Source of the DNA: an uncultured Vibrio sp.
Lineage (GTDB): Bacteria; Pseudomonadota; Gammaproteobacteria; Enterobacterales; Vibrionaceae
DNA: 64,000 nucleotides
NCBI RefSeq assembly: GCF_963675395.1
Contig: NZ_OY776223.1
Location: 2,418,001 to 2,482,000, forward strand
Direction: 5' to 3'
Shown here: positions 4,120-30,064 of the stretch, piece after piece
Layout of the letters: the number at the start of each line of letters is the position of its first letter
How positions within the stretch are numbered: position 1 is the stretch's first letter
Notes under the pieces: model-generated
The model's database searches: none
The model's input: only the letters and a program-made list of their open reading frames with translations
Told to the model about the DNA's origin: nothing
Program-made: the position numbers and the translations under genes

Positions 4120-5832
<1,713 letters not shown>

Positions 5833-5844
5833 GTAAAGGGATGC

Positions 5845-5880
5845 GGGCAGCGGCGAAGGTTGTGCTGCTGCCCTTTAAAA
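5845..5880 (+). terminator. pyrG terminator-like hairpin
   Basis: GGGCAGC (5845-5851) pairs with GCTGCCC (5867-5873), followed by TTTAAAAT. The T run is short, so some read-through into eno is likely. Confidence 0.55.
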
Positions 5881-5884
5881 TTGA

Positions 5885-7216
<1,332 letters not shown>

Positions 7217-7253
7217 TTCTTAATTGAATAAAGTTTAGCTAAATAGCTTTTTG

Positions 7254-7280
7254 AAACCCTCGCTACGGCGGGGGTTTTTG
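7254..7280 (+). terminator. eno terminator
   Basis: AAACCCTCGC (7254-7263) pairs with GCGGGGGTTT (7268-7277) with one wobble and a TACG loop, and a T run follows. Confidence 0.85.
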
Positions 7281-7317
7281 TTTATTGGGGATGTTTAAAA
7301 GCAGAAGCTTAAGAGCA

Positions 7318-7493
7318 ATGAGCCGTTCAGACCGTGTTGCTGCTATACCTAAAAAAGGCAACCAGCTAATCCGTATCGAGGAAGCTCTAGGTGAGCGCGC
7401 TCCCCCTTTTTTCACAAGAAAGCGGTCTTAAATAAGTTAAAGGTCAAGCTTAATTCGTAATTGAATAAAGTTTAGCTAAATAGCTTTTAGAAA
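7318..7493 (+). pseudogene. decayed partial duplicate of the eno 3' end
   Basis: This stretch repeats eno 7106-7253: ATGAGCCGTTC at 7318, then CCGTATCGAGGAAGCTCTAG and GGTGAGCGCGCTCC, the GGTCTTAAA..AAGTTAAAGG tail and the stop. The ~45 bases after the eno stop are repeated almost unchanged. Inside the coding part two insertions break the frame, around 7343-7358 and 7404-7425. They contain complementary AAAAAAGG and CCTTTTTT. It cannot encode an enolase end. It accounts for most of the 466-bp gap between eno and ftsB. Confidence 0.9.
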
Positions 7494-7494
7494 T

Positions 7495-7520
7495 GCTCCA
7501 CCTCGATTGGAGCGTTTTTT
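7495..7520 (+). terminator. second terminator after the eno remnant
   Basis: GCTCCA (7495-7500) and TGGAGC (7508-7513) form a stem followed by GTTTTTT. It differs in sequence from the first eno terminator although the preceding ~45 bases are near-identical. Confidence 0.75.
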
Positions 7521-7627
7521 ATCTGCAGAATCTTTATGTGAACACGCTTCCAAAAGCTTTTCTTTACACTCTTTCATGTGAGGAGTCTGTGAGTCTTCCT
7601 TTCTGCCCTAGAGGCCATCACGCATTT

Positions 7628-7643
7628 ATGCTATATATAGCAT
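7628..7643. promoter_or_regulatory. 16-bp perfect palindrome upstream of ftsB
   Basis: ATGCTATATATAGCAT is a perfect dyad 40 bp before ftsB, in the likely promoter region of the ftsB-ispD-ispF run. It may be an operator or contain the -10 element. No known regulator was recognised. Confidence 0.35.
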
Positions 7644-7682
7644 CTTATCTAATTCCTTCCGGTACAGAATGTTAGCAACGAT

Positions 7683-7964
7683 ATGCGAATCTTTGTTATA
7701 GCCCTTACGTTACTGTTTGGCTTACTTCAATACACTTTATGGTTCGGCAAAAACGGGGTGTCTGATTACTATGCAGTAGAAGATGAAATCGAAGTACAGC
7801 AACAAGTAAACAGCAAGCTACAAGCTCGTAATAATGAAATGTTTGCTGAAATTGATGACCTGAGACAAGGCATTGATGCTATTGAAGAAAGAGCACGTCA
7901 TGAGCTTGGTTTAGTCAGAGATGGTGAAACGTTCTACCGAATTGTTGGTGAGGAAAACCAGTAA
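7683..7964 (+). CDS. ftsB: cell division protein FtsB
   Basis: FtsB is a small bitopic inner-membrane protein that links FtsL and FtsQ in the divisome. The 93-residue protein has a short cytoplasmic start, one transmembrane helix (about residues 3-21, [19 protein letters not shown]), then a periplasmic coiled coil rich in Gln/Glu (residues 30-70) and the conserved [18 protein letters not shown] segment. The start ATG has only a weak ribosome site. Its stop lies one base before the ispD start, so the two are probably translationally coupled. Confidence 0.96.
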
Positions 7965-7965
7965 G

Positions 7966-8673
7966 ATGTTGGATACTGTCCCATCTCATATCGCCATTGT
8001 GCCCGCTGCTGGTGTCGGTAGCAGAATGAAAGCCGATCGCCCCAAACAATACTTATTGATTGATGGAAAGGCGGTGTTAGAGCATACCGTAGAGAAGCTT
8101 CTCTCCCATCGTAAAATCGCTAAAGTCGTGGTGGCGGTTACCGAAGGTGATCCCTATTACCCAGCGTTATCCATAGCAAATCATCCCGATGTGATTAGAG
8201 TCGCTGGCGGGAAAGAAAGAGCCGACTCGGTACTTTCAGGACTAAACTATGTAAGTGCGCATCTTTCCAGTGAGTGGGTGCTGGTTCACGACGCTGCAAG
8301 GCCTTGCGTCACTTTAACTGACATAGACCGTTTGATTGATGTTTGTATTGGTCATCCCACTGGAGGCATTCTTGCATCACCTGTGAGAGATACGATGAAA
8401 CGTGCTAACTCAGCACAAAATATTGCTCATACTGTCGACAGAGAAGCATTGTGGCATGCACTAACCCCACAAATGTTTAAAACTCAGCCCTTAAAAAACG
8501 CTCTGAGCGACGCCTTACAGCAAGGTATCGCCATCACAGACGAAGCCTCCGCTTTGGAGTGGAAGGGAGAATACCCCGCTTTAGTTCAGGGCAATGCGAG
8601 CAATATAAAAATTACTCAACCCGAAGATCTCGCATTAGCTGAGTTTTATTTAAGCCGTGAGCGCGGCGAATAA
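7966..8673 (+). CDS. ispD: 2-C-methyl-D-erythritol 4-phosphate cytidylyltransferase
   Basis: IspD joins CTP and MEP in the non-mevalonate isoprenoid pathway. The 235-residue protein has the nucleotidyltransferase signature [18 protein letters not shown] at about residues 12-29, the VHDAARPC motif with metal ligand, and TDEASALE near the end. The frame runs upstream inside ftsB, but the ATG at 7966 directly after the ftsB stop gives a family-length protein. IspF follows after 13 bases, so consecutive-pathway enzymes are cotranscribed. Confidence 0.97.
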
Positions 8674-8686
8674 GTAAGGATAGAAA

Positions 8687-9163
8687 ATGATTCGAATTGG
8701 TCACGGTTTTGACGTACACAAATTTGGTGGCGAAGGCCCAGTTATTATCGGTGGTGTCTCTGTACCTTATGAACAAGGGCTTATCGCGCACTCAGACGGC
8801 GATGTGGCTTTGCATGCGTTGAGTGATGCGTTACTTGGTGCCATTGCGGCTGGTGATATTGGCCGCCATTTTCCTGATACTGATGACAAGTGGAAAGGTG
8901 CTGACAGTCGCGAGTTGCTGAAAGATGTTTACCGCCGGGTAAAAGAACAAGGGTATCGATTAGGTAATGCAGACATTACCATCATGGCTCAAGCACCAAA
9001 AATGGCACCGCATATTGAAGCGATGTGTGAAGTCATTGCTCAAGATCTTGAAACGGATATCGGTAATATCAACGTAAAGGCAACCACAACCGAACGCCTA
9101 GGTTTTACAGGACGTAAAGAAGGTATCGCTACAGAAGCCGTCGTTCTTCTGTTTAAGCAATAA
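8687..9163 (+). CDS. ispF: 2-C-methyl-D-erythritol 2,4-cyclodiphosphate synthase
   Basis: IspF cyclises CDP-ME 2-phosphate to MEcPP, releasing CMP. The 158-residue protein shows the Zn-binding [10 protein letters not shown] at the N-terminus, the [18 protein letters not shown] block, HFPDTD, and the C-terminal [15 protein letters not shown]. Length matches the family (about 157). It sits between ispD and truD in the conserved order. Confidence 0.98.
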
Positions 9164-9208
9164 TAATTAACTTGTTCCCTAATGCTGCAAGAGCAGTGGA
9201 ATTCAATC

Positions 9209-10252
9209 ATGTCAGATATTTTATCTTCATTGGCTTACCTAACGGGTAAGCCAGTCGCATCAGCAAAAATTAAAGCGCAGCCAGAGCACTTTCAGGTTAG
9301 CGAAGATCTCGGCTTTGCCTTTACTGGCGAAGGAGAGCATTTGATGGTGCGTATTCGAAAAACGGGTGAAAACACCAGCTTTGTTGCTAACGAGATAGCT
9401 AAAGCGTGTGGTGTTAAATCTAAGGATGTGAGCTGGGCTGGCTTAAAGGACCGCCATGCGGTGACAGAGCAATGGCTGAGCGTTCATTTACCAAAAGGTG
9501 ACACACCGGATTTTTCCGCGTTTTTAGCGCAATACCCAACTATTGAAATTCTGGCAACGGATCGTCACAACAAGAAGTTACGCCCGGGTGATTTGGTGGG
9601 CAATGGGTTTGTCGTCACTTTATCTGAAGTGACCGATGTTGAAGACGTAGAGCAACGCCTTGAAAAAATAAAACAAGTGGGGGTGCCGAACTACTTTGGT
9701 GCTCAGCGCTTTGGCAACGATGGGAATAATCTGGAAGAAGCCCGTCGTTGGGGGCGTGAAAACGTACGTACGCGTAATCAAAATAAGCGCAGTATGTACC
9801 TGTCTGCCGCGCGATCATGGATTTTTAACCGTATCGTCTCTGCGCGTTTAGAGCAGGATCTATTCGATAAGTTTATCGAGGGTGATATCGCACAAACGCC
9901 AACAGGTAGCGTCACAGTGGACGCGAGCAATATGGCGGATATGCAAGCTAAGTTTATCGACGGAGAGGCCGTGATTACCGCTGCTTTGGCTGGTGATAAC
10001 GCATTACCAACTCAAGCCGATGCTTTGGCATTAGAGCAACCGTTTCTGGATGAGGAGCCGGACTTGATGGCACTTATTCGTGGTAACCGTATGCGTCATG
10101 ATCGCCGTAATATTGTATTAAAGCCGCAAGATCTTGCTTGGAGCGTTGAAGGTAACAATATTACGCTGACTTTCTCATTAGATGCTGGCTCGTTTGCTAC
10201 ATCCATTGTTCGTGAGTTAGTCAACGAGGTAAAAGTAGAAAGAGAATACTAA
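9209..10252 (+). CDS. truD: tRNA pseudouridine(13) synthase TruD
   Basis: TruD isomerises U13 of tRNA-Glu to pseudouridine. The protein of 347 residues (E. coli 349) carries the TruD catalytic motif [14 protein letters not shown], where the Asp is catalytic, and [12 protein letters not shown] and [13 protein letters not shown] segments ([10 protein letters not shown] near residue 300). The open frame extends to an ATG at 9182, but the ATG at 9209 gives the expected N-terminus [15 protein letters not shown] and has a GTGGA ribosome site. It overlaps the surE start by one base (TAATG). Confidence 0.95.
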
Positions 10253-11028
10253 TGGAACAAGATTCATCAAACACCAAGTCATTGCGAATTCTGATTAGCA
10301 ATGATGATGGGGTTTATGCTCAGGGAATTCATGCGCTTGCCGATGAATTGAGAGACATTGCTGAAGTAACTATTGTTGCACCAGATCGAAACCGTTCCGG
10401 TGCTTCAAACTCGCTGACCTTAGAGCAGCCACTTCGAGTAACCAAGATTGCACCGAGTACTTACTCTGTACAAGGCACACCGACAGATTGTGTTCATTTT
10501 GCTTTAAATGAGTTAATGAAGGATAACCTGCCTGATCTTGTTCTGACAGGGATCAATCATGGTGCAAATTTAGGTGATGACGTGCTGTACTCAGGTACGG
10601 TTGCCGCTGCAATGGAAGGGCATTTTCTCGGTGTTCAGTCTGTTGCATTTTCGTTGGTTGGAAAGCGCCACTTTGAGTCCGCGGCAAAAATTGCACGCAG
10701 ACTCGTACAACAACATCTTGCTATGCCAATTCCAACTAATCGTTTACTGAACGTTAATGTCCCTGATCTTCCTCTGGAACAACTGGATCAAATTGAAGTG
10801 ACTCGCTTAGGGGCGCGTCATCACGCAGAGAACATGATCAAGCAGAAAGACCCACGAGGCCATGATATTTACTGGTTAGGGCCTCCTGGCAAAGAGCAAG
10901 ATGCAGGTGAAGGTACTGACTTTTATGCAATTGAGCGTGGTCGGGTCTCTGTTACCCCGCTACAAGTTGATCTCACGGCTCATGAATCACTGCGTGCTAT
11001 GGATAGTTGGTTGAAGGAAGAGAAGTAA
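10252..11028 (+). CDS. surE: 5'/3'-nucleotidase SurE
   Basis: SurE is a metal-dependent nucleotidase/exopolyphosphatase tied to stationary-phase survival. The 258-residue protein has the signature [17 protein letters not shown] with the Asp-Asp metal ligands, [22 protein letters not shown], and [24 protein letters not shown]. The start shares its A with the truD stop (TAATG), pointing to translational coupling. A dozen residues precede the usual MRILxSNDDG start. The end overlaps the pcm start in the same way. Confidence 0.96.
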
Positions 11029-11654
11029 TGAGTAATCCACATGCTGACCGGTTGATTGAATATCTCATCGCCAGTGGCATTAAAGATCAACGTGTTCTGG
11101 ATGCGATTCATCACTTGCCGAGAGAACGGTTTGTCTCTCAAGCGATGATGCACCAAGCCTACGACAACAATGCATTGCCGATTGGTCAGGGACAAACGAT
11201 TTCTCAGCCTTACATTGTTGCGCGCATGACGGAGTTATTAGAACTCGAGCCTTCAAGTAACGTTTTGGAAATTGGTACTGGCTCTGGTTATCAAACTGCG
11301 GTTTTAGCGCAACTTGTCGAGCGTGTGTACTCCGTTGAACGCATTAAGTCTTTACAGTGGGAAGCCAAGCGTCGCCTCAAGCAACTTGATATATATAATA
11401 TTTCGACTAAACATGGAGATGGGTGGCTGGGCTGGGAAGCGAAAGGTCCATTTGATGCCATTCTTGTCACTGCTGCTGCTGAAGTCATTCCCCAAGCACT
11501 TTTAGCGCAGTTGAAAGACGGCGGTAGGATGGTTATCCCTGTTGGTGAAACGGAACAACAACTATTGAAGATTGAACGTAAAGGCGATGAGTACCTTTCC
11601 ACCGTGGTGGAGATGGTGCGGTTCGTTCCTTTAGTGGCGGGTGATTTAGCGTAA
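11028..11654 (+). CDS. pcm: protein-L-isoaspartate O-methyltransferase
   Basis: Pcm repairs isoaspartyl residues in aged proteins using SAM. The 208-residue product equals E. coli Pcm in length. It has the SAM motif [18 protein letters not shown] (about residues 79-96), the RERFVSQAM substrate segment, and the C-terminal [11 protein letters not shown]. The frame opens at 11007, but the ATG at 11028 overlaps the surE stop (TAATG), as in other species. The surE-pcm-nlpD-rpoS order is the classical stationary-phase cluster. Confidence 0.97.
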
Positions 11655-11667
11655 GGGTTAAAGATTG

Positions 11668-12591
11668 GTGAGTAAGTTATTACGTCGAACTAGTATTAGC
11701 TTTATGTTAGCTGCAGGACTTCTCGGTTGTGCGGCTCACTCACCAGCGCCTGTTTCTAGCTTAAAAAAAGATTACTCAAATGTTGAGCGGGGCAGTTATA
11801 GAGGGAGTTACTATGAAGTAAAGAAAGGAGACACACTTTACTTCATAGCATACGTCACAGATAAGGATGTAAATGACCTCGTTCGTTACAATGAGCTTGC
11901 TCAACCTTACACTATCTATCCAGGTCAGCGCCTAAAACTTTGGGCTCCGAAATATATTGCTCCGAAATACGGGCAAAAAGTGGAACCCGTTGTGGCACCT
12001 ATAGTTGCAAAGACTCCAGTTCCCGTGACGAAAATATCAACGGTATCCAAGCCTATTGATTCAAGTAAAAGCTCTACTCCAAAAGTGCAGCCAACTACCC
12101 CTAAAGTGGTGCAAAAACAGCCTCCAAAGAAGGTTGAACAATCCAAAACAAAGGAGTATGTTGGTTCAAAAGATAACCAAAATGTGAAGAAAAATCCGTC
12201 TACAACGACTACTAAAAATGCGAACGTATCGAAGTGGTTGTGGCCAACAAAAGGGAGAGTAATCAAGAACTTTTCGGCGGGAGAACAGGGAAATAAAGGT
12301 ATTGATATCGCAGGACAGCGTGGTCAGCCTATCGTTTCAACCGCAGCCGGCACTGTTGTTTATTCAGGCAATGCACTACGAGGTTATGGCAACCTAATTA
12401 TAGTGAAGCATAATGACAATTATCTAAGCGCATATGCCCATAATGACAAGCTGCTGGTATCCGAAGGACAAAGTGTCAACAGTGGACAAAAAATCGCAAC
12501 CATGGGTAGTTCTGGTTCGAAATCAGTCAAGCTGCACTTTGAAATTCGCTATCAAGGTAAATCAGTGAATCCAAAACGCTATTTGCCGTAA
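11668..12591 (+). CDS. nlpD: murein hydrolase activator NlpD, lipoprotein
   Basis: The 307-residue outer-membrane lipoprotein activates the amidase AmiC at the division site. A signal peptide ends in a lipobox, LLGC, around residue 21. A LysM peptidoglycan-binding domain follows (YEVKKGDTLYFIAY to PGQRLKLW, about residues 50-93), then a low-complexity Lys/Pro/Thr linker. Last is a C-terminal LytM/M23 domain (GIDIAGQRGQPIVSTAAG to LHFEIRYQGKSVNP) lacking the zinc-binding His residues, as expected of a non-catalytic activator. GTG at 11668 is preceded by AAGGG; a TTG one codon upstream is an alternative start. Confidence 0.94.
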   Translation: MSKLLRRTSISFMLAAGLLGCAAHSPAPVSSLKKDYSNVERGSYRGSYYEVKKGDTLYFIAYVTDKDVNDLVRYNELAQPYTIYPGQRLKLWAPKYIAPKYGQKVEPVVAPIVAKTPVPVTKISTVSKPIDSSKSSTPKVQPTTPKVVQKQPPKKVEQSKTKEYVGSKDNQNVKKNPSTTTTKNANVSKWLWPTKGRVIKNFSAGEQGNKGIDIAGQRGQPIVSTAAGTVVYSGNALRGYGNLIIVKHNDNYLSAYAHNDKLLVSEGQSVNSGQKIATMGSSGSKSVKLHFEIRYQGKSVNPKRYLP

Positions 12592-12671
12592 AACTTTGAA
12601 ACACAACTTGCGAAACCATTTAGCAACATATTGAGTTGTCATGTCTTGCTAACTCGCCAGGGGGAGGCGTT

Positions 12672-22907: not shown

Positions 22908-23105
22908 ATGCTAATTTTGACTCGCCGCGTAGGCGAAACACTGATGATTGGTGATGAGGTAACTGTAACTGTACTGGGTGTTAAAGGTAACCAAGTACGC
23001 ATCGGCGTTAACGCTCCGAAGGAAGTATCAGTTCACCGTGAAGAAATCTACATGCGCATTCAAGCTGAAAAAGGTAATGGTAACGTTGCTTCAGGTAACT
23101 ACTAA
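22908..23105 (+). CDS. csrA: carbon storage regulator CsrA
   Basis: CsrA is a small RNA-binding dimer that represses translation by binding GGA motifs and controls carbon flow, motility, biofilm and quorum sensing. The 65-residue protein begins [20 protein letters not shown], contains [27 protein letters not shown] with the RNA-binding Arg44 region, and has a short variable tail. CAAGGAG precedes the start. It is the gene immediately before the tRNA array. Confidence 0.98.
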
Positions 23106-23348: not shown

Positions 23349-23441
23349 GGTGAGGTGGCCGAGAGGCTGAAGGCGCTCCCCTGCTAAGGGAGTATACGGT
23401 TTGTAGCCGTATCGAGGGTTCGAATCCCTCCCTCACCGCCA
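23349..23441 (+). tRNA. tRNA-Ser(GCU), copy 1
   Basis: The 93-nt gene has acceptor stem GGTGAGG/CCTCACC, discriminator G and encoded CCA. Anticodon loop CTGCTAA gives anticodon GCU, which reads AGC/AGU. The long variable arm (ATACGG..CCGTAT) is the class II serine type. Confidence 0.97.
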
Positions 23442-23467
23442 TTCTTGCGAACTGAAAAGTGTATTAT

Positions 23468-23544
23468 GCGTCCTTAGCTCAGCTGGATAGAGTACCTGGC
23501 TACGAACCAGGCGGTCGGAGGTTCGAATCCTCCAGGACGCGCCA
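23468..23544 (+). tRNA. tRNA-Arg(ACG), copy 1
   Basis: 77-nt gene with acceptor stem GCGTCCT/AGGACGC, encoded GCCA end and anticodon loop CTACGAA. ACG is normally edited to ICG and reads CGU/CGC/CGA. First of eight copies. Confidence 0.97.
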
Positions 23545-23564
23545 CTCTTTAGAACAAATAAAAC

Positions 23565-23657
23565 GGTGAGGTGGCCGAGAGGCTGAAGGCGCTCCCCTGC
23601 TAAGGGAGTATACGGTTTGTAGCCGTATCGAGGGTTCGAATCCCTCCCTCACCGCCA
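23565..23657 (+). tRNA. tRNA-Ser(GCU), copy 2
   Basis: Identical over its 93 bases to copy 1 at 23349. The order Ser-Arg-Ser-Arg indicates an early duplication of a Ser+Arg pair before the Arg-only expansion. Confidence 0.97.
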
Positions 23658-23660
23658 TTT

Positions 23661-23684
23661 ATTGACGTAGCAGTCAATTTTTTT
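23661..23684 (+). terminator. terminator-like hairpin inside the tRNA array
   Basis: ATTGAC-N6-GTCAAT followed by seven Ts lies between tRNA-Ser copy 2 and tRNA-Arg copy 2. It suggests the Arg-only part may be a separate transcription unit or that the hairpin is a processing site. Confidence 0.5.
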
Positions 23685-23703
23685 GTTCTTAAAGAAAATC
23701 AAT

Positions 23704-23719
23704 GTGATACGCTTCACAA
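23704..23719 (+). promoter_or_regulatory. CRP-like palindrome in the tRNA array
   Basis: TGTGATACGCTTCACA is a perfect TGTGA-N6-TCACA operator, with its centre 13 bp before the mature 5' end of tRNA-Arg copy 2. A CRP site there would overlap the transcript start, so function is uncertain. Confidence 0.4.
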
Positions 23720-23724
23720 ATTGC

Positions 23725-23801
23725 GCGTCCTTAGCTCAGCTGGATAGAGTACCTGGCTACGAACCAGGCGGTCGGAGGTTCGAATCCTCCAGGACGCGCC
23801 A
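23725..23801 (+). tRNA. tRNA-Arg(ACG), copy 2
   Basis: Same 77-base sequence as copy 1. It follows the hairpin and CRP-like site. Confidence 0.97.
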
Positions 23802-23881
23802 CTTTCAAAGAAGTCTGACTTTTTTGAAAAAGAATTTAGGGTATTGCCCTGATATTGACTACAGTTGATATCGAAACGTGT

Positions 23882-23958
23882 GCGTCCTTAGCTCAGCTGG
23901 ATAGAGTACCTGGCTACGAACCAGGCGGTCGGAGGTTCGAATCCTCCAGGACGCGCCA
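23882..23958 (+). tRNA. tRNA-Arg(ACG), copy 3
   Basis: Same 77-base sequence. From here on the start-to-start distance is 155-156 bp. Confidence 0.97.
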
Positions 23959-24036
23959 CTATTTCTTTGAAAACGAAAGACAGGGTATTACCCTGATATT
24001 GATTTCCTGTTTACAGGCGTTGATATCGAAAACTGC

Positions 24037-24113
24037 GCGTCCTTAGCTCAGCTGGATAGAGTACCTGGCTACGAACCAGGCGGTCGGAGGTTCGAATCCT
24101 CCAGGACGCGCCA
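24037..24113 (+). tRNA. tRNA-Arg(ACG), copy 4
   Basis: Same 77-base sequence. It is preceded by the repeated spacer with GATATCGAAAACTGC. Confidence 0.97.
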
Positions 24114-24191
24114 CTATTTTTTTGAAAACGAAAGACAGGGTATTGCCCTGATATTAAAACCCTGTTTACAGGCATTGATATCGAAAACTGC

Positions 24192-24268
24192 GCGTCCTTA
24201 GCTCAGCTGGATAGAGTACCTGGCTACGAACCAGGCGGTCGGAGGTTCGAATCCTCCAGGACGCGCCA
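24192..24268 (+). tRNA. tRNA-Arg(ACG), copy 5
   Basis: Same 77-base sequence within the tandem repeat. Confidence 0.97.
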
Positions 24269-24347
24269 CTATTTTTTTTGAAAACGAAAGACAGGGTATT
24301 GCCCTGATATCGAAACCCTGTTTACAGGCATTGATATCGAAAACTGC

Positions 24348-24424
24348 GCGTCCTTAGCTCAGCTGGATAGAGTACCTGGCTACGAACCAGGCGGTCGGAG
24401 GTTCGAATCCTCCAGGACGCGCCA
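24348..24424 (+). tRNA. tRNA-Arg(ACG), copy 6
   Basis: Same 77-base sequence within the tandem repeat. Confidence 0.97.
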
Positions 24425-24502
24425 CTATTTCTTTGAAAACGAAAGACAGGGTATTGCCCTGATATCGAAACCCTGTTTATAGGCATTGATATCGAAAACT
24501 GC

Positions 24503-24579
24503 GCGTCCTTAGCTCAGCTGGATAGAGTACCTGGCTACGAACCAGGCGGTCGGAGGTTCGAATCCTCCAGGACGCGCCA
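24503..24579 (+). tRNA. tRNA-Arg(ACG), copy 7
   Basis: Same 77-base sequence within the tandem repeat. Confidence 0.97.
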
Positions 24580-24658
24580 CTATTTCTTTTGAAAACGAAA
24601 GACAGGGTAATGCCCTGATATTAAAACCCTGTTTACAGGCGTTGATATCGAAAACTGC

Positions 24659-24735
24659 GCGTCCTTAGCTCAGCTGGATAGAGTACCTGGCTACGAACCA
24701 GGCGGTCGGAGGTTCGAATCCTCCAGGACGCGCCA
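24659..24735 (+). tRNA. tRNA-Arg(ACG), copy 8
   Basis: Same 77-base sequence. It is the last copy and is followed by a strong terminator. Confidence 0.97.
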
Positions 24736-24918: not shown

Positions 24919-25926
24919 ATGATACGAAACACTCTGTTGGGAAGTACTCTTGGCTTAGTATGTATGGTTCCCATGGCTCAAGGAGCGGAAGGTGATGAGC
25001 TTCCGCAACGAGCCCAAACGGTTAGTGACGTTTTTGAACGGCCAGGCGTCCTTACCCCTAAAGGAAGCTGGTCATTTGATACTTCTTTCAATTACACGCA
25101 AAACTCTTCAAATAAGGTCTCGGTTGTTGGTTACACCATCTTACCGACGTTAATTGTTGGACGTATTGAGGTAAGTGATGCAGACCGAACGACGATTACC
25201 GCTGGCCTCACTACTCGTTATGGCTTAACCAATGCGACAGAATTGGAGCTTCGTATTCCTTATGTCTATCGTAACGATCAAGTTGCAACGCGTCCTATTC
25301 AAGATGGTGCGAACCAAGAAATCGTAAATACCACCGTTGATGGTGGAGGGCTGGGGGATGTTGAGCTTGCTCTAAGGCATCAGTTCAACTTTGAATCAGT
25401 CCCTTATTGGATTGGTGGTTTAAGAGTTAAGTCCGATACAGGTCGCTCTCCCTACGATGTATCTATTGAACCAGACAGTAACGCGTTCAGTGATGTGCCA
25501 ACAGGATCGGGCTTTTGGAGCATTGAACCAAGTCTTACTATGATCCATCCCGCTGATCCTGCAGTTTTATTTGCAAGTCTTAGTTATATTTACAATTTTG
25601 AAGATGATGTCTCAATTGGAGAAGGCGAAGAGGAACAAAAGGTAGAAGTTGAACTTGGTGATACCATTGCATTGTCGGGAGGTATGGGCTTTGCGGTCAA
25701 TCCAGACCTGTCTTTTTCTCTTGGCTTGAGCCATAAGACCATACTGAAGAGTAAGATAAATGGCAGTTATTCAGAAGATGCCAAATTGCTGCAGTTGGAT
25801 TCATTCATCTTTGGTATAAACTATGCATTTAGTGAGAGTTCTTCGCTCAATGTCAGTGCTCAAGCGGGATTAACTGAAGATACGCCAGATTTCCAACTAA
25901 CCATTCGAGTCCCTTATAATATTTAA
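24919..25926 (+). CDS. outer-membrane beta-barrel protein, FapF-like putative fibre exporter
   Basis: This 335-residue exported protein has a signal peptide ending near residue 22 (MAQGA). A short segment follows, then ERPGVLTPKGSWSFD (residues 40-54), a hallmark I associate with the Phenol_MetA_deg/FapF-type barrels. The rest is alternating beta strands with turns, such as RYGLTNATELELRIPYVYR and GGGLGDVELALRHQF. In Pseudomonas, FapF is the outer-membrane channel for amyloid subunits. The N-terminal coiled-coil plug of FapF is absent, since only ~20 residues precede the barrel. It ends in VPYNI, not an aromatic residue. ATG 24919 lies five bases after AAGGAGG. Substrate and role are inferred from the C39 peptidase and small exported proteins nearby. 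Confidence 0.7.
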   Translation: MIRNTLLGSTLGLVCMVPMAQGAEGDELPQRAQTVSDVFERPGVLTPKGSWSFDTSFNYTQNSSNKVSVVGYTILPTLIVGRIEVSDADRTTITAGLTTRYGLTNATELELRIPYVYRNDQVATRPIQDGANQEIVNTTVDGGGLGDVELALRHQFNFESVPYWIGGLRVKSDTGRSPYDVSIEPDSNAFSDVPTGSGFWSIEPSLTMIHPADPAVLFASLSYIYNFEDDVSIGEGEEEQKVEVELGDTIALSGGMGFAVNPDLSFSLGLSHKTILKSKINGSYSEDAKLLQLDSFIFGINYAFSESSSLNVSAQAGLTEDTPDFQLTIRVPYNI

Positions 25927-26444
25927 TCTAGGCTCGGAATAATAAATAGAAAGGAACTAAAAGCGGTTTCTGTGCTCAGATCTTTCGACCAAGAATGGCT
26001 CCCCACAAAGGAGCCAATCACGTACAAACAAACTAGCAGAATTCTTTGTTATATTGACCTTGCACCAGTTGTAGTAAACAACTGTTCAAACTAGCTTATT
26101 ATGCCAAGCTACATAAGTACCTGATCACTCTTGCTAATTAATACCGCTGACAACTGTGTTATAGGTTTTGTTTTACAATTAGAATCACGAGTGAAGGAAA
26201 TCTATACCTGACCTGCTTGCTTTAATCGGTTTTACTGCGTAATAATTATGTAGATTGGTATTAAAGTGGATTAATATCTTATTAACTAAAAAAAGAAAAG
26301 CCACCGCTTAATATCATTCCTAGTGAAAACTAGGTTTGATGACGATGACTTATACCGATCTCGTTATATCTATCTTTTATCATCTTTTTAACACTTTAAA
26401 TGTGAATAAACTAAAAAGTAACGCCTTTACTGTGGGGGGATGCA
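25927..26444. other. non-coding gap between convergent genes
   Basis: 518 bp with no credible gene, AT-rich in its right part. Two hairpins are visible: TGGCTCC-N7-GGAGCCA (25996-26016) and CCTAGT-GAAA-ACTAGG (26319-26334). Neither has a convincing T run. They could still mark the ends of the two convergent transcripts. Confidence 0.5.
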
Positions 26445-27062
26445 CTAGTCGAGATGATTAAGTAAGGCATCTTCCAGCCGACTATTCGCTTGAATTTGTT
26501 GAATCACTCCACTAACTTGCGCATCAATGTCGATAATAGTGCTCAGACCAATGACGCTATTATCGGCTGTATTCTGAATAATGTTAACAATACTTGAGTT
26601 GATAAATTCAGAATTAATAATATCTGATTGTTGGAAGTTGGGGATTTGCGGCATACCCGTTATATGGTCCGAGATGGTTTCATCTTCGATGCTGTTCCCT
26701 TCTCCAATCTGAACTATGTTAACCAAACTTTGATCTAAGGCACCTTGGTTTGTATTGATGTTGGATAAGTTGCCATTTTCAATGACTAAATTAGCGATGC
26801 TGGAATTGAAAATGTCTTGTCCATTGATGGTTGTAATGACGCTCAAACCAATGTTGATAACGTAGTCGCTGGTGACTTGAAACCCTCCACGATATTGCGC
26901 GAGTGAACTTTGAGGTAATGGTTCTAGTCCCTTTAGTTCAATGACTTCTCTTGCACTCACCGCTTGACTAAAGCAGTGTGCCAATATGAGTAAGCACAGT
27001 GCGACTAGGTTCTTTTTAAGGAACAGAATCTGATTTAAAAATAGACCCTTTTTGAAAAACAT
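26445..27062 (-). CDS. exported protein of a Fap-like locus with Gly-Gly motif, unknown function
   Basis: The 205-residue protein has an N-terminal hydrophobic signal (cleavage near VSA-RE, residue 37), then SSLAQYRGGF with Gly-Gly at 59-60. The rest is rich in Asn, Ser and Ile, with weak repeats such as NSSIANLVIENG, QSLVNIVQIGEGN and NSSIVNIIQNTADN. The same IxNxxQNxxxNxVI flavour occurs in the 110-residue protein two genes upstream. A GTG at 27095 overlaps the C39 gene stop (GTGA) and is an alternative start; ATG 27062 has AAGG upstream. It may be a minor fibre subunit or FapE-like matrix protein. This is inferred from neighbours only. Confidence 0.6.
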   Translation of the reverse strand: MFFKKGLFLNQILFLKKNLVALCLLILAHCFSQAVSAREVIELKGLEPLPQSSLAQYRGGFQVTSDYVINIGLSVITTINGQDIFNSSIANLVIENGNLSNINTNQGALDQSLVNIVQIGEGNSIEDETISDHITGMPQIPNFQQSDIINSEFINSSIVNIIQNTADNSVIGLSTIIDIDAQVSGVIQQIQANSRLEDALLNHLD

Positions 27063-27086
27063 GTTATCCAGCCTTAACCGTTCGTT

Positions 27087-27124
27087 AGTTTTCACCTGAT
27101 ACTGAAGTTTTCACCTGATACTGG
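27087..27124. repeat. 19-bp tandem duplication at the end of the C39 gene
   Basis: AGTTTTCACCTGATACTGA (27087-27105) is followed directly by a copy with one change at its last base (27106-27124). On the minus strand the unit carries the codons for SGEN and a following stop. The extra copy shifts the end of the C39 reading frame. Confidence 0.85.
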
Positions 27125-27784
27125 TACTGTGGTACTAAAGATCCCTAATGAGTCTCGTGATACTCCTGTATCTAACGGTGAGCGTTGATAAACGGCAAAT
27201 TTGTCGTCTGTGATGAAACTAGAGCGTCCGGCTTTAGCTTCGCTACGTACGAGTAGAACAATGCCTTGGTAAAACTTCTGAAATTGTTCAAGCTTCATGA
27301 CCATAGTGCCCCTTGAAGGATCGCCTAAAATGACGGAATGACTATTAATGCCTTTGATAACGACAAAGTGCATATAGCCATCAAAGTTAACCAAAGTTAT
27401 CCCTGGTACACCAAGATCGCGGACTTTTTCTATGCTCACCTGAAAACCGTCTGAACGTAAACCGATCGACTCTAGGTAGAGCTTCATGTCAAGTAAAGAA
27501 AAGCCTTTCTCTTTAATCTGTTTTTTGTCACCTCGCTCATACATTGATTTGAAAATGTCTTGTTCTGATGATTTGGTGTCGTAGTGATAATTCAGTAGTG
27601 ATGCCAAAGCCGCAGAGCCACAGCTGAAGTCATACTGTTGACGAAAGATATCGCCAAACACCATCTCTTTGTAGCTTTTTACCGGTACCGAATAGTGTGC
27701 TCGGGAAGGTAAAAACTCTAACGAATTGGCTGATACCGAAAAGAAAATGAGTATCAGCCAAGAATAGTTACGCAAAAGGTTCAT
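27092..27784 (-). CDS. C39-family cysteine peptidase, exported, FapD-like
   Basis: The 230-residue protein has a signal peptide (residues 1-21) and a peptidase C39 domain. QQYDFSCGSAALASLL holds the oxyanion Gln49 and nucleophile Cys55, YMHFVVIKG gives His139 and ILGDPSRG gives Asp155. No ABC transporter or membrane domains follow, so it is a stand-alone periplasmic peptidase, as FapD in Pseudomonas amyloid operons. C39 peptidases typically cut after Gly-Gly, and two neighbouring exported proteins carry RGG motifs. The last four residues (FSIR) result from a 19-bp tandem duplication. It lies in a minus-strand operon with three small exported proteins. Confidence 0.8.
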   Translation of the reverse strand: MNLLRNYSWLILIFFSVSANSLEFLPSRAHYSVPVKSYKEMVFGDIFRQQYDFSCGSAALASLLNYHYDTKSSEQDIFKSMYERGDKKQIKEKGFSLLDMKLYLESIGLRSDGFQVSIEKVRDLGVPGITLVNFDGYMHFVVIKGINSHSVILGDPSRGTMVMKLEQFQKFYQGIVLLVRSEAKAGRSSFITDDKFAVYQRSPLDTGVSRDSLGIFSTTVPVSGENFSIR

Positions 27785-27789
27785 ATTAT

Positions 27790-28122
27790 CTACTTGAGTG
27801 TTAGATTAACGACGGTTGCGTTCTGGATAACGACATTGTTCCCGGTATTTTGAATCACACTAGAAATCCCAGAACTCCCTGCAAACGCTCCTGGCGCAAG
27901 AATGTTATTTCCGCTCACTGTATTTAACGCGAGATTATCTGACGAAATACCGGTCATATCTGTGTCTGAGTAAATCGAGTCGATCTCTATTTCTACTAGA
28001 TGACCCCCTCTCGATTCACTCAGAACATTCGTACCAATCACTTCTTCGTCAGATAATTCTAGGTCGTCAGCGAATGCAGAAACGGCAATGATCATACTCA
28101 AGGTAAAGACTGCCAAACGCAT
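27790..28122 (-). CDS. small exported protein with LSxxE...RGG motif, candidate C39 substrate
   Basis: The 110-residue product has a signal peptide (cleavage near residue 18). ELSDEEVIGTNVLSESRGGH follows, which resembles a double-glycine leader (GG at 39-40). A 70-residue Asn/Ser/Val-rich part comes next, including SGISSVIQNTGNNVVIQNAT. Its end resembles that of the 231-residue repeat protein just upstream (VGQIAGSNSLVQQSVVTNAN). The frame can be read from a TTG four codons earlier, but ATG 28122 follows GGAG. The stop is five bases before the C39 gene. A role as an amyloid-like or nucleator subunit is inferred. Confidence 0.6.
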   Translation of the reverse strand: MRLAVFTLSMIIAVSAFADDLELSDEEVIGTNVLSESRGGHLVEIEIDSIYSDTDMTGISSDNLALNTVSGNNILAPGAFAGSSGISSVIQNTGNNVVIQNATVVNLTLK

Positions 28123-28145
28123 CGCGATCTCCAAGTTATAAATGA

Positions 28146-28841
28146 CTATTCACCAGTAAATAGGTTTGCATTGGTTACGACAGATTGTTGGACAAGTGAG
28201 TTTGAACCAGCGATTTGACCCACAGTAGTAATACCAGCTACACCATCCATACCATCTAGGCTGTTGATATTGGTAACGTCGACATAGGCTTCGTCATCCC
28301 ATGCTGTATTAATTACCAGACCAGCAGCAGTACCACTTAGAGTCGAGCTTGCTACGACCATATCAGTACTAACAGATAGTGTGTTGTAGCTGTTGGTAGT
28401 ATTGTAGCTGTCGTCAGTACTGTTATCGTTAAAGCTGTCATCAATACCTACGTTCAACGTGTCACTGTTATCAGTGTAATCGTTATCGTATGATTTAAAG
28501 CTATCTGCAATACCAATACCTAAGTCATTGTCATTAGAAGTATTGGTGGTTGTATTGGTGGTTGTATTGGTTAAGGTATCGTTGTCATCATTAAAGCTAC
28601 CGTTGACGCCGAGATCAGTACTTTGATCTCTGTTGTCTGTAGCTTTAAAGCTATCGTTCACACCGACATCAGTACTGTTATCAGTAGCTTTGAAACTGTC
28701 ATTGACAACGTTAGTTGTGTTTAGGCTGTCATCCCACTGCGCATTACCGTCACCGTCGTCGACCCCATTAAAAGCTAAAGATGAGCCACTAAATAGAAGT
28801 GCAGATACTGCGATAGCTAATCCTGTTTTGCTAAGAATCAT
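28146..28841 (-). CDS. exported Asn/Asp/Thr-rich repeat protein, candidate fibre subunit
   Basis: The 231-residue protein has a signal peptide cleaved near SLA-FN (residue 23). Five imperfect repeats follow, each ending in a xSF tripeptide (DSF at 48-50, 63-65, 113-115 and 135-137; GSF at 81-83) and separated by Asn/Asp/Ser/Thr-rich stretches, including a (TNTT) run at 91-101. The C-terminal ~70 residues are less repetitive (NSLDGMDGVAGITTVGQIAG). Repeats rich in Asn/Ser/Gly are typical of secreted amyloids such as FapC and CsgA, but no sequence identity is claimed. ATG 28841 follows GGAG. It is the first gene of the minus-strand operon. Confidence 0.65.
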   Translation of the reverse strand: MILSKTGLAIAVSALLFSGSSLAFNGVDDGDGNAQWDDSLNTTNVVNDSFKATDNSTDVGVNDSFKATDNRDQSTDLGVNGSFNDDNDTLTNTTTNTTTNTSNDNDLGIGIADSFKSYDNDYTDNSDTLNVGIDDSFNDNSTDDSYNTTNSYNTLSVSTDMVVASSTLSGTAAGLVINTAWDDEAYVDVTNINSLDGMDGVAGITTVGQIAGSNSLVQQSVVTNANLFTGE

Positions 28842-29422
28842 AATGATTACTCCATTTTCATTTTTGAAAAGACTGTACAACTTCTGTTTGCTTACTAATG
28901 ATTTCTGATTGCTTCCTGATGTTCTCTAGGGCAGCGTTGATATTATAGATAAGATAATTCGTGAGCATTTTGGGGGGAGGAAGGGTTTACAGATAAAATG
29001 GGCCTAAATTGTAGTGGAAATTGTTTGTAATCATTTAGTTATATAAGCCCCGAACGATAGTGCATAATAAGTATGAAAGTAAATTTATATTAAGGCTTAA
29101 ATAGTATGAGTTCTCTGGTACGAACAGTAGGTAGGGATCTATTGGGTATTTTGGTTTGTAAATATGAGTAAGAGTGAATTTTAGTTTTAAAAATTAATGG
29201 GTTGATAAAAAGATAGTGGGTAAATAGTTGGTCATGGCAGAGTTTCTTTTAATACTTTTTAATGACTCAATTGTTTTATTTTAGGCCTCAGCCTCATTCT
29301 CATCTGCTATAGTTCCTCGTATTAAATCTCTTGTTATAAAGAGGTAAGAGAAAAGCAAGGCACCTTAAATTTCATAAAAAAAACCAATGTAATTAATTAA
29401 TTAAGAATAAGTGGTGGAAATT
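28842..29422. promoter_or_regulatory. divergent AT-rich regulatory region
   Basis: About 580 bp separate the repeat-protein operon (minus) from the CsgD-like regulator (plus). It is AT-rich. A minus-strand TATAAT lies at 28942-28947. An inverted repeat, TATATAAGCC (29040-29049) with GGCTTAAATA (29094-29103), has one mismatch. No gene is seen. The length is typical of heavily regulated biofilm promoters. Confidence 0.5.
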
Positions 29423-30064
29423 ATGGGAACTAAACACCTATTCATACTTGGAGAAGATAACTTGCAGAGCAGACTTATCGAGGAGCAGTTATCGCTAATA
29501 CCTAACGTGAACGTTAAAACGCTGTTACCTGAGGATGTTGTTTTTAATTGTCACTCCCTAAATGTTGACTTAGTTCTGATGGATTATGACTTTATTCATC
29601 AATTAGAGTTGAGTAATCAAATACCTGATTTTGATGTACTTGGTTGGCCATTAATGATCCACAATGTTCCTAACCAGGGCGTTCACGCAAATATACTGCG
29701 CTGGACTTTGCTGAAAGGCGTGTTACTTAGAAATGCCCCTGTCGCCGCTATTCGTGATTGTGTGGAGCATATTTTCAATGGTGGCTTATGGTTACCGAGA
29801 AGCTATCTAGAGAAACTGGTTAACGATTATCGTTGTGCCAACTCAAATAAAGATTCTCAACACGACATGTTGACATGCAGAGAGCGACAAATCTTAGCGC
29901 TACTGGTCTATGGCGTATCGAACCAAAAAATCGCGGAACACTTGTTTTTATCCGAAAGTACCGTGAAAAGCCATATATACAAGTTGTATAAAAAGCTTGA
30001 TGTCCACTCTCGACATGACGCGGTAAAGTTAGCTCGCTTGAATGGCGGGTTGACAGCTCAGTAA
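29423..30064 (+). CDS. LuxR-family response-regulator-like transcription factor, CsgD/VpsT type
   Basis: The 213-residue protein has an atypical N-terminal receiver-like domain (LFILGEDNLQSRLIEEQL, VDLVLMDYDF) and a C-terminal LuxR helix-turn-helix (MLTCRERQILALLVYGVSNQKIAEHLFLSESTVKSHIYKLYKKL, residues 149-192). The linker GGLWLPRSYLEKL places WLPR at 123-126. In VpsT the c-di-GMP motif is W-[FLM]-[TS]-R, so three of four positions agree. GTG 29411 is possible, but ATG 29423 has GGTGGA before it and gives CsgD-like length. Divergent from the exported-protein operon, it is the likely activator of that locus (inference). Confidence 0.75.
   Translation: MGTKHLFILGEDNLQSRLIEEQLSLIPNVNVKTLLPEDVVFNCHSLNVDLVLMDYDFIHQLELSNQIPDFDVLGWPLMIHNVPNQGVHANILRWTLLKGVLLRNAPVAAIRDCVEHIFNGGLWLPRSYLEKLVNDYRCANSNKDSQHDMLTCRERQILALLVYGVSNQKIAEHLFLSESTVKSHIYKLYKKLDVHSRHDAVKLARLNGGLTAQ

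Follow-up and report, generated by a model that had tools for sequence, protein, structure and literature searches.

A probable sister lineage of the Fap export system represented by a six-gene block in Vibrio

In the window, a stretch of 64,000 nucleotides from an uncultured Vibrio sp. (contig NZ_OY776223.1, positions 2,418,001 to 2,482,000), six genes form a block that comprises a FapF-like outer-membrane barrel on the plus strand, a convergent minus-strand operon in the order repeat protein, small exported protein (S110), C39 peptidase and FapE-like exported protein (E), and a divergent regulator. We read this block as encoding Fap-type machinery for export and assembly, from a lineage that is distinct from canonical Fap but sister to it, and place the probability of that reading, together with the mechanism proposed below, at roughly two in three. 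The six open frames and their strands are as an initial annotation had placed them, and the coordinates were confirmed (Table 1), with alternative upstream GTG starts open at 27095 for E and at 29411 for the regulator.

Table 1. Features of the six-gene block, in window coordinates
Feature	Position	Strand	Basis or remark
FapF-like outer-membrane barrel	24919-25926	+	335 aa; plug segment present, coiled coil absent
E, FapE-like exported protein, leader ending RGG	26445-27062	-	orthologue at 43/43 Vibrio loci
Predicted site of recognition and cleavage by C39 in E (leader positions -12 to -1)	26883-26918	-	computed from R58-G59-G60
FapD-like periplasmic C39 peptidase, Cys55/His139/Asp155	27092-27784	-	Pfam, NCBIfam, invariant triad
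S110, small exported protein, RGG leader and probable single Fap-repeat-like C-terminal module	27790-28122	-	42/43 Vibrio loci; profile tests
Double-glycine-like leader end of S110, looser than that of E	28003-28038	-	Vibrio S110 alignment
Repeat protein, acidic, Asp/Asn/Ser/Thr-rich, exported, putative main subunit	28146-28841	-	43/43 Vibrio loci
C-terminal module of the repeat protein, weak likeness to one FapB/C repeat	28149-28259	-	profile tests
Divergent CsgD/VpsT-like regulator	29423-30064	+	GerE and receiver-like domain; 42/43 Vibrio loci

The peptidase is recognized by the Pfam Peptidase_C39 model (1.9e-23) and is nearest to FapD (NCBIfam model, 2.3e-40, 138 bits, below the cut-off of 330). 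It is a stand-alone peptidase with a signal of its own, and its catalytic triad, already assigned in the initial annotation, is intact and invariant in an alignment of 36 C39 members. A 19-base tandem duplication is found at the C39 stop (27087-27123), and the C terminus of the window C39 is slightly longer than in most relatives. The barrel, by sequence as well as by fold, is of the FapF type, a 12-strand-class barrel with a helical plug. The segment preceding the plug position comprises 33 residues (signal included), versus 147 and 153 in the canonical FapF proteins of Vibrio, and the N-terminal coiled coil and linker of FapF were not found in it. The Fap-like machinery that had been proposed for this locus, including a barrel lacking the coiled-coil plug, is thus borne out by the profile models and the fold, with the correction that only the coiled coil is missing, whereas the plug segment is retained.

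The motif after which two of the exported proteins had been labeled RGG proteins is indeed present, and is best read from the alignments as closing a leader of the C39 double-glycine type, with a predicted cut site. Of 52 E proteins, 51 have R(G/A)(G/A) after the signal peptide (RGG in 48). Among the 51 aligned sites, a hydrophobic residue stands at -12 in 51, at -7 in 50, and at -4 in 50, and the whole pattern occurs in 50 of the 52 proteins versus 73 of 2600 shuffles. Since these hydrophobic positions match leader residues -4, -7, and -12, which are bound in the co-crystal of a C39 peptidase (PMC6363468), the leader is read as belonging to the double-glycine type. The same pattern, ending in RG(R/K) instead of RGG, is found in 16 of 18 FapE proteins of canonical loci, as well as in 119 of the 120 database relatives of FapE listed (of 368; shuffles, 108 of 2400), which are mostly from Stenotrophomonas and are therefore not independent. 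In S110, where a Sec signal precedes the leader, the site is present in 51 of 61 wider members and is less strict than in E, with -4 mostly polar; the 42 Vibrio proteins end it with RGG (31), RGK (7), RGQ (3), or RGR (1).

For canonical FapE, the available text of PMC5557850 reports that no peptides were recovered from the first ~70 residues and calls the target of FapD unclear, and the leader would fit into that gap. The other FapD target proposed there, the FapF linker, is absent from the window barrel. As part of the second-lineage proposal weighed below, it can be suggested, tentatively and at somewhat less than even odds, that the shared leader marks the FapE-type protein as a putative substrate of the FapD-type peptidase in both lineages. 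At one locus (L125, 6662-7810) the E frame extends to 383 residues, with an apparent membrane helix and coiled coil seen by eye ahead of the RGG, as though E carried the coil that some barrels lack; the E frames of L114 and L144 are also long.

A C-terminal module is common to S110 and the repeat protein (profile comparison, 97%, E-value 6e-10), and S110 and E are related across their length (97%, E-value 1e-11). Outside the module the repeat protein is variable. In 42 Vibrio members of 156-434 residues, Asp, Asn, Ser, and Thr make up 39-80% of the sequence, and some relatives are Gly-rich. A repeat model from canonical loci detects three repeats in both FapB and FapC at 13 of 15 such loci; applied to the present type at E-values up to 1e-5, it finds a repeat gene in none of the 43 Vibrio loci and in none of the 14 loci of the class sample described below. 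FapB or FapC with three imperfect repeats was thus not found at these loci, and the different subunits claimed in the initial annotation stand. Among single sequences, the model scores above the 99th percentile of shuffles in one of 42 S110 proteins, seven of 44 repeat proteins, and none of 43 E proteins. As scans of single sequences are negative (see below), the repeat claim is based on profile-profile and reverse-profile tests. The scores of S110 and of the repeat protein against the canonical repeat were reached by none of 100 column shuffles of either profile. In the reverse direction, the repeat-protein module finds the FapB repeats in register, with six of 35 FapB/C proteins scoring higher than any of 1050 shuffles and ten above the 99th percentile, and the S110 module places one of the 35 above all shuffles and 14 above that percentile. 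These comparisons make one Fap-like repeat per protein probable in S110 and the repeat protein. No solved structure matched the S110 profile at E-values up to 10. For the DDGDGN stretch in the repeat protein, a calcium-loop reading was dropped, a loose pattern occurring in 15 of 43 members.

Among the 80 named loci described below (the best 80 of 557), a single one, from Billgrantia (L145), has a repeat gene recognized by the canonical model. There (5562-12643) the present-type block lies beside FapB- and FapC-like genes with canonical repeats, and NtrC-like and CsgD-like regulators are positioned between the two. In Photobacterium (L092-L097, L099-L103), two repeat-protein genes flank S110 at all 11 loci, and the stretches examined gave no match to the regulator of Vibrio. 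Many Vibrio and Photobacterium records annotate the S110 family as 'carbon storage regulator', a name probably carried over from the adjoining csrA.

The regulator combines a GerE domain (1.9e-19) with a VpsT-like receiver (REC) domain (8.6e-5, below the cut-off) that is matched in 21 of 21 members at E-values up to 0.1, and it also matches the CsgD model (3.7e-26, 92.1 bits) below its cut-off of 250. The likeness to CsgD and VpsT assigned to it earlier, namely a receiver-like domain joined to a LuxR-type helix-turn-helix, is supported by these profile models. The motif W[LMI]PR is kept in 43 of 44 regulator rows, with WLPR in the window, as compared with W[FLM][TS]R, which we take to be the cyclic di-GMP motif of VpsT. 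Binding of cyclic di-GMP, which in VpsT is disrupted by the R134A substitution (PMC3359988), is putative for the present regulator.

Relatives of the C39 peptidase occur in 48 of 227 Vibrio genomes. In one of them (G205) the match is weak and falls in a 717-residue frame, and another three (G142, G167, G016) carry canonical Fap alone, leaving 44 genomes with the present type, that of the window included; canonical Fap, present in four of the 227 and separate from the present type, accompanies it in G084. At the 43 further Vibrio loci (L034-L076), E and the repeat protein are found at 43, and S110, the barrel, and the regulator at 42 each, the misses being confined to L041 and L043, both truncated by contig ends. 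The six-gene block is thus conserved far beyond chance among Vibrio loci. Its arrangement varies at a few of them, with the barrel ~7 kb off in L048 and the regulator on the barrel side in L054, L057, L062, and L063. In one genome (L075) the C39 frame is in two pieces, and the remaining parts of the block are present.

In the window, the block is flanked by csrA (22908-23102) and ten tRNA genes (23349-24735) on one side and by oadGAB (from 30429) on the other. The same site holds the block in 11 of the 44 genomes, with csrA or oadG in the examined stretch taken as the marker, and in the other 33 it lies elsewhere or is not placeable. A query with oadG matched 108 of 118 Vibrio genomes, of which 30 loci were kept; after exclusion of six block carriers, 24 were scanned for tRNA genes. 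In 20 of these (L241-L260), a tRNA-Arg gene ends ~340-505 bases before oadG, a distance that amounts to 5.7 kb in the window, and all 20 genomes lack a C39 match. One locus (L239) has tRNA-Ser alone, and L232, L237, and L240 have no tRNA gene in the flank examined. The accessory position proposed for the block is therefore borne out by 20 related genomes in which the site is empty; occupancy differs from species to species, and gain and loss are indistinguishable from this pattern. No integrase was noticed at the locus, though no dedicated search was made, and the locus DNA had no match in the plasmid collection.

Outside Vibrio, a C39 scan of a genome collection yielded 557 confirmed loci, the best 80 of which (the named loci) comprise 24 from Vibrionaceae and 56 from others, including Halomonas, Marinobacter, Nitrosomonas, Sphingomonas, Ectothiorhodospira, Telluria, Pseudoxanthomonas, and metagenome-assembled genomes; those labeled Ignavibacteria and Cytophagales may be mis-binned. 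With Vibrio profiles at E-values up to 0.01, S110, E, C39, and the barrel are all present at 24 of 24 Vibrionaceae loci and at 30 of the 56 others, where S110 is matched at 44, E at 40, and the barrel at 48, several of these matches being weak; the Halomonas forms examined are degenerate. The S110 profile finds 14 of 398 genomes in a phylum sample. In a class sample, the FapD model at 1e-10 matches 49 of 369 genomes at 64 places, of which 40, besides the window, were examined and comprise 15 canonical Fap loci, 14 of the present type, and 11 other C39 sets, ten of the latter with a barrel match; one genome (G238) has both the canonical and the present type. This third C39 set (L219-L223, L225-L230) is without S110 or Fap repeats, and some of its members may be Fil-like.

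Trees of the C39 peptidase (87 rows) and of the barrel (85 rows) split the rows by label. The new type forms a group of 57 rows in the former (support 100/98) and of 56 in the latter (99), and canonical Fap one of 19 rows (99/94 and 98, respectively); the 11 'other' rows group together in the C39 tree (98/88), and their ten rows in the barrel tree need two changes. Both trees are unrooted. A chosen 10 of the 44 Vibrio loci entered them, along with 33 chosen from the 80 named ones; as the named loci were labeled 'new' because the C39 scan had found them, some without an S110 match, these labels are not independent. The scans and trees uphold the relation to Fap in what had been called a Vibrio version of it, and remove the confinement to Vibrio: as far as sequences tell, the window locus represents one branch within a lineage spread across the Proteobacteria.

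Compared with canonical Fap (fapABCDEF; PMC5557850, PMC12392863, PMC12822426), the block shares a FapF-type barrel with plug, a FapD-type periplasmic C39 peptidase, a FapE-type leader, and two more exported proteins with C-terminal modules similar to the FapB/C repeat. It differs in that three-repeat FapB and FapC are undetected and each protein appears to have one module, in gene order with a convergent barrel, in the barrel being without coiled coil, in a mature E unlike mature FapE, and in having its own branch in both trees. No FapA model appeared among the model matches, although no search aimed at FapA was made. The canonical Fap loci of Vibrio (L077-L080; PMC3792158) likewise have the C39 peptidase, the barrel, and the FapE-type leader, but encode a FapC of ~1277 residues where seen, a barrel of 458-468 residues, an NtrC-like regulator in the listed frames, and a C39 that is 33% identical to that of the window.

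From the homology of barrel and peptidase, the conserved block and leader, the lineage, and the shared C-terminal modules, we infer a mechanism in which Sec would export the four operon proteins and the barrel from the cytoplasm. The periplasmic C39 would then cut the double-glycine-type leader off E, presumably after RGG, and in many species probably that of S110 as well. Matured E may license the FapF-like barrel, which S110 and the repeat protein would cross unfolded; once outside, they would assemble by way of the single Fap-repeat-like module at each C terminus. S110 could serve as nucleator, in a FapB-like role, and the repeat protein would take the FapC-like role, its acidic low-complexity part staying extended as a hydrated coat. 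The divergent regulator would switch the operon on.

Several results weigh against this reading. E is not a full-length homologue of FapE, a possibility that was considered and rejected: the profile comparison between them (94%, E-value 9e-8) is limited to signal and leader, and mature E has no match to mature FapE. A leader site was not recognized in 10 of the 61 wider S110 members, and in 11 of the 42 Vibrio ones it ends otherwise than in RGG. The canonical repeat model scored above the shuffle maximum in none of the single sequences (S110 0/42, repeat protein 0/44, E 0/43), and the profile comparisons with the canonical repeat gave low probabilities, 64% for S110 and 20% for the repeat protein. 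The structure model of S110 (predicted local distance difference test score, 57.8) is too weak for use and thus uninformative, and at least one part is missing at an E-value of 0.01 from 26 of the 56 named loci outside Vibrionaceae. Finally, secretion and leader cleavage, as well as the formation of fibers or amyloid by the products, are putative.

The strongest competing explanation keeps the export machinery and makes the product a non-amyloid surface coat or adhesin, in which the acidic low-complexity protein does the work (hydration, contact with ions or surfaces) and the C-terminal module serves export or anchoring alone. The length range and composition of the repeat protein, Gly-rich in some relatives, and the lack of a Fap repeat in single sequences speak for this explanation, which we consider unlikely yet worth keeping in view; it is opposed by the mutual relation of the S110 and repeat-protein modules, by the weak relation of these modules to the Fap amyloid repeat, and by machinery that is that of an amyloid exporter. 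Considerably less probable is a pilus-like system akin to Acinetobacter Fil, the function of which is recorded as a putative pilus (PMC4751259), with C39 and barrel assembling a different surface structure. The FilB and FilC models do match the window C39 and barrel (6.9e-31 and 3.2e-16), but weakly and with scores below those of the FapD and FapF models (107.6 bits against a cut-off of 475, and 59.6 against 630), and the 'other' rows, among which Fil members were not identified, fall outside the present type in both trees. Export of a microcin or signal peptide, in which cleavage by C39 would turn S110 into a small, active peptide that is released, would account for a C39 peptidase and a double-glycine-type leader, but is very improbable, given that the peptidase stands alone and has a signal of its own (the genome has one further C39 match, below cut-off, in a 706-residue frame on the other contig), that the barrel is of the FapF type, and that a Sec signal lies ahead of the leader.

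The Fap-type reading bears on a system regarded as nearly fixed, since the available text of two surveys gives three repeats in ~94% of FapC and FapB genes and the canonical gene order in >90% of clusters, both surveys having required a FapB/C repeat match in screening (PMC12392863, PMC12822426). Canonical Fap with unusual repeat numbers has already been reported in Vibrio, and FapD and FapF have been suggested to be members of two larger families (PMC3792158), into which the present lineage fits. Among the papers listed from an open-licence library, none was found that describes this lineage or a double-glycine leader in FapE, and six VIBHAR tags matched no paper there. At the Gammaproteobacteria places examined it is about as frequent as canonical Fap (14 versus 15 of 40), and the canonical repeat model detects none of its subunits there. 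We can speculate, a little short of an even bet, that it constitutes a second proteobacteria-wide Fap-type amyloid lineage with one repeat per secreted protein, in which a small nucleator and a long, disordered main protein, either acidic or Gly-rich, would polymerize together into a mixed fiber. If fibers are made, Fap would be far more diverse than is known at present, and a single repeat in each protein may be enough. The leader would offer a precise and testable answer to the question of the FapD target, left open in the available text of PMC5557850, and a one-repeat lineage, if true, would overturn the view of Fap as evolutionarily fixed at three repeats.

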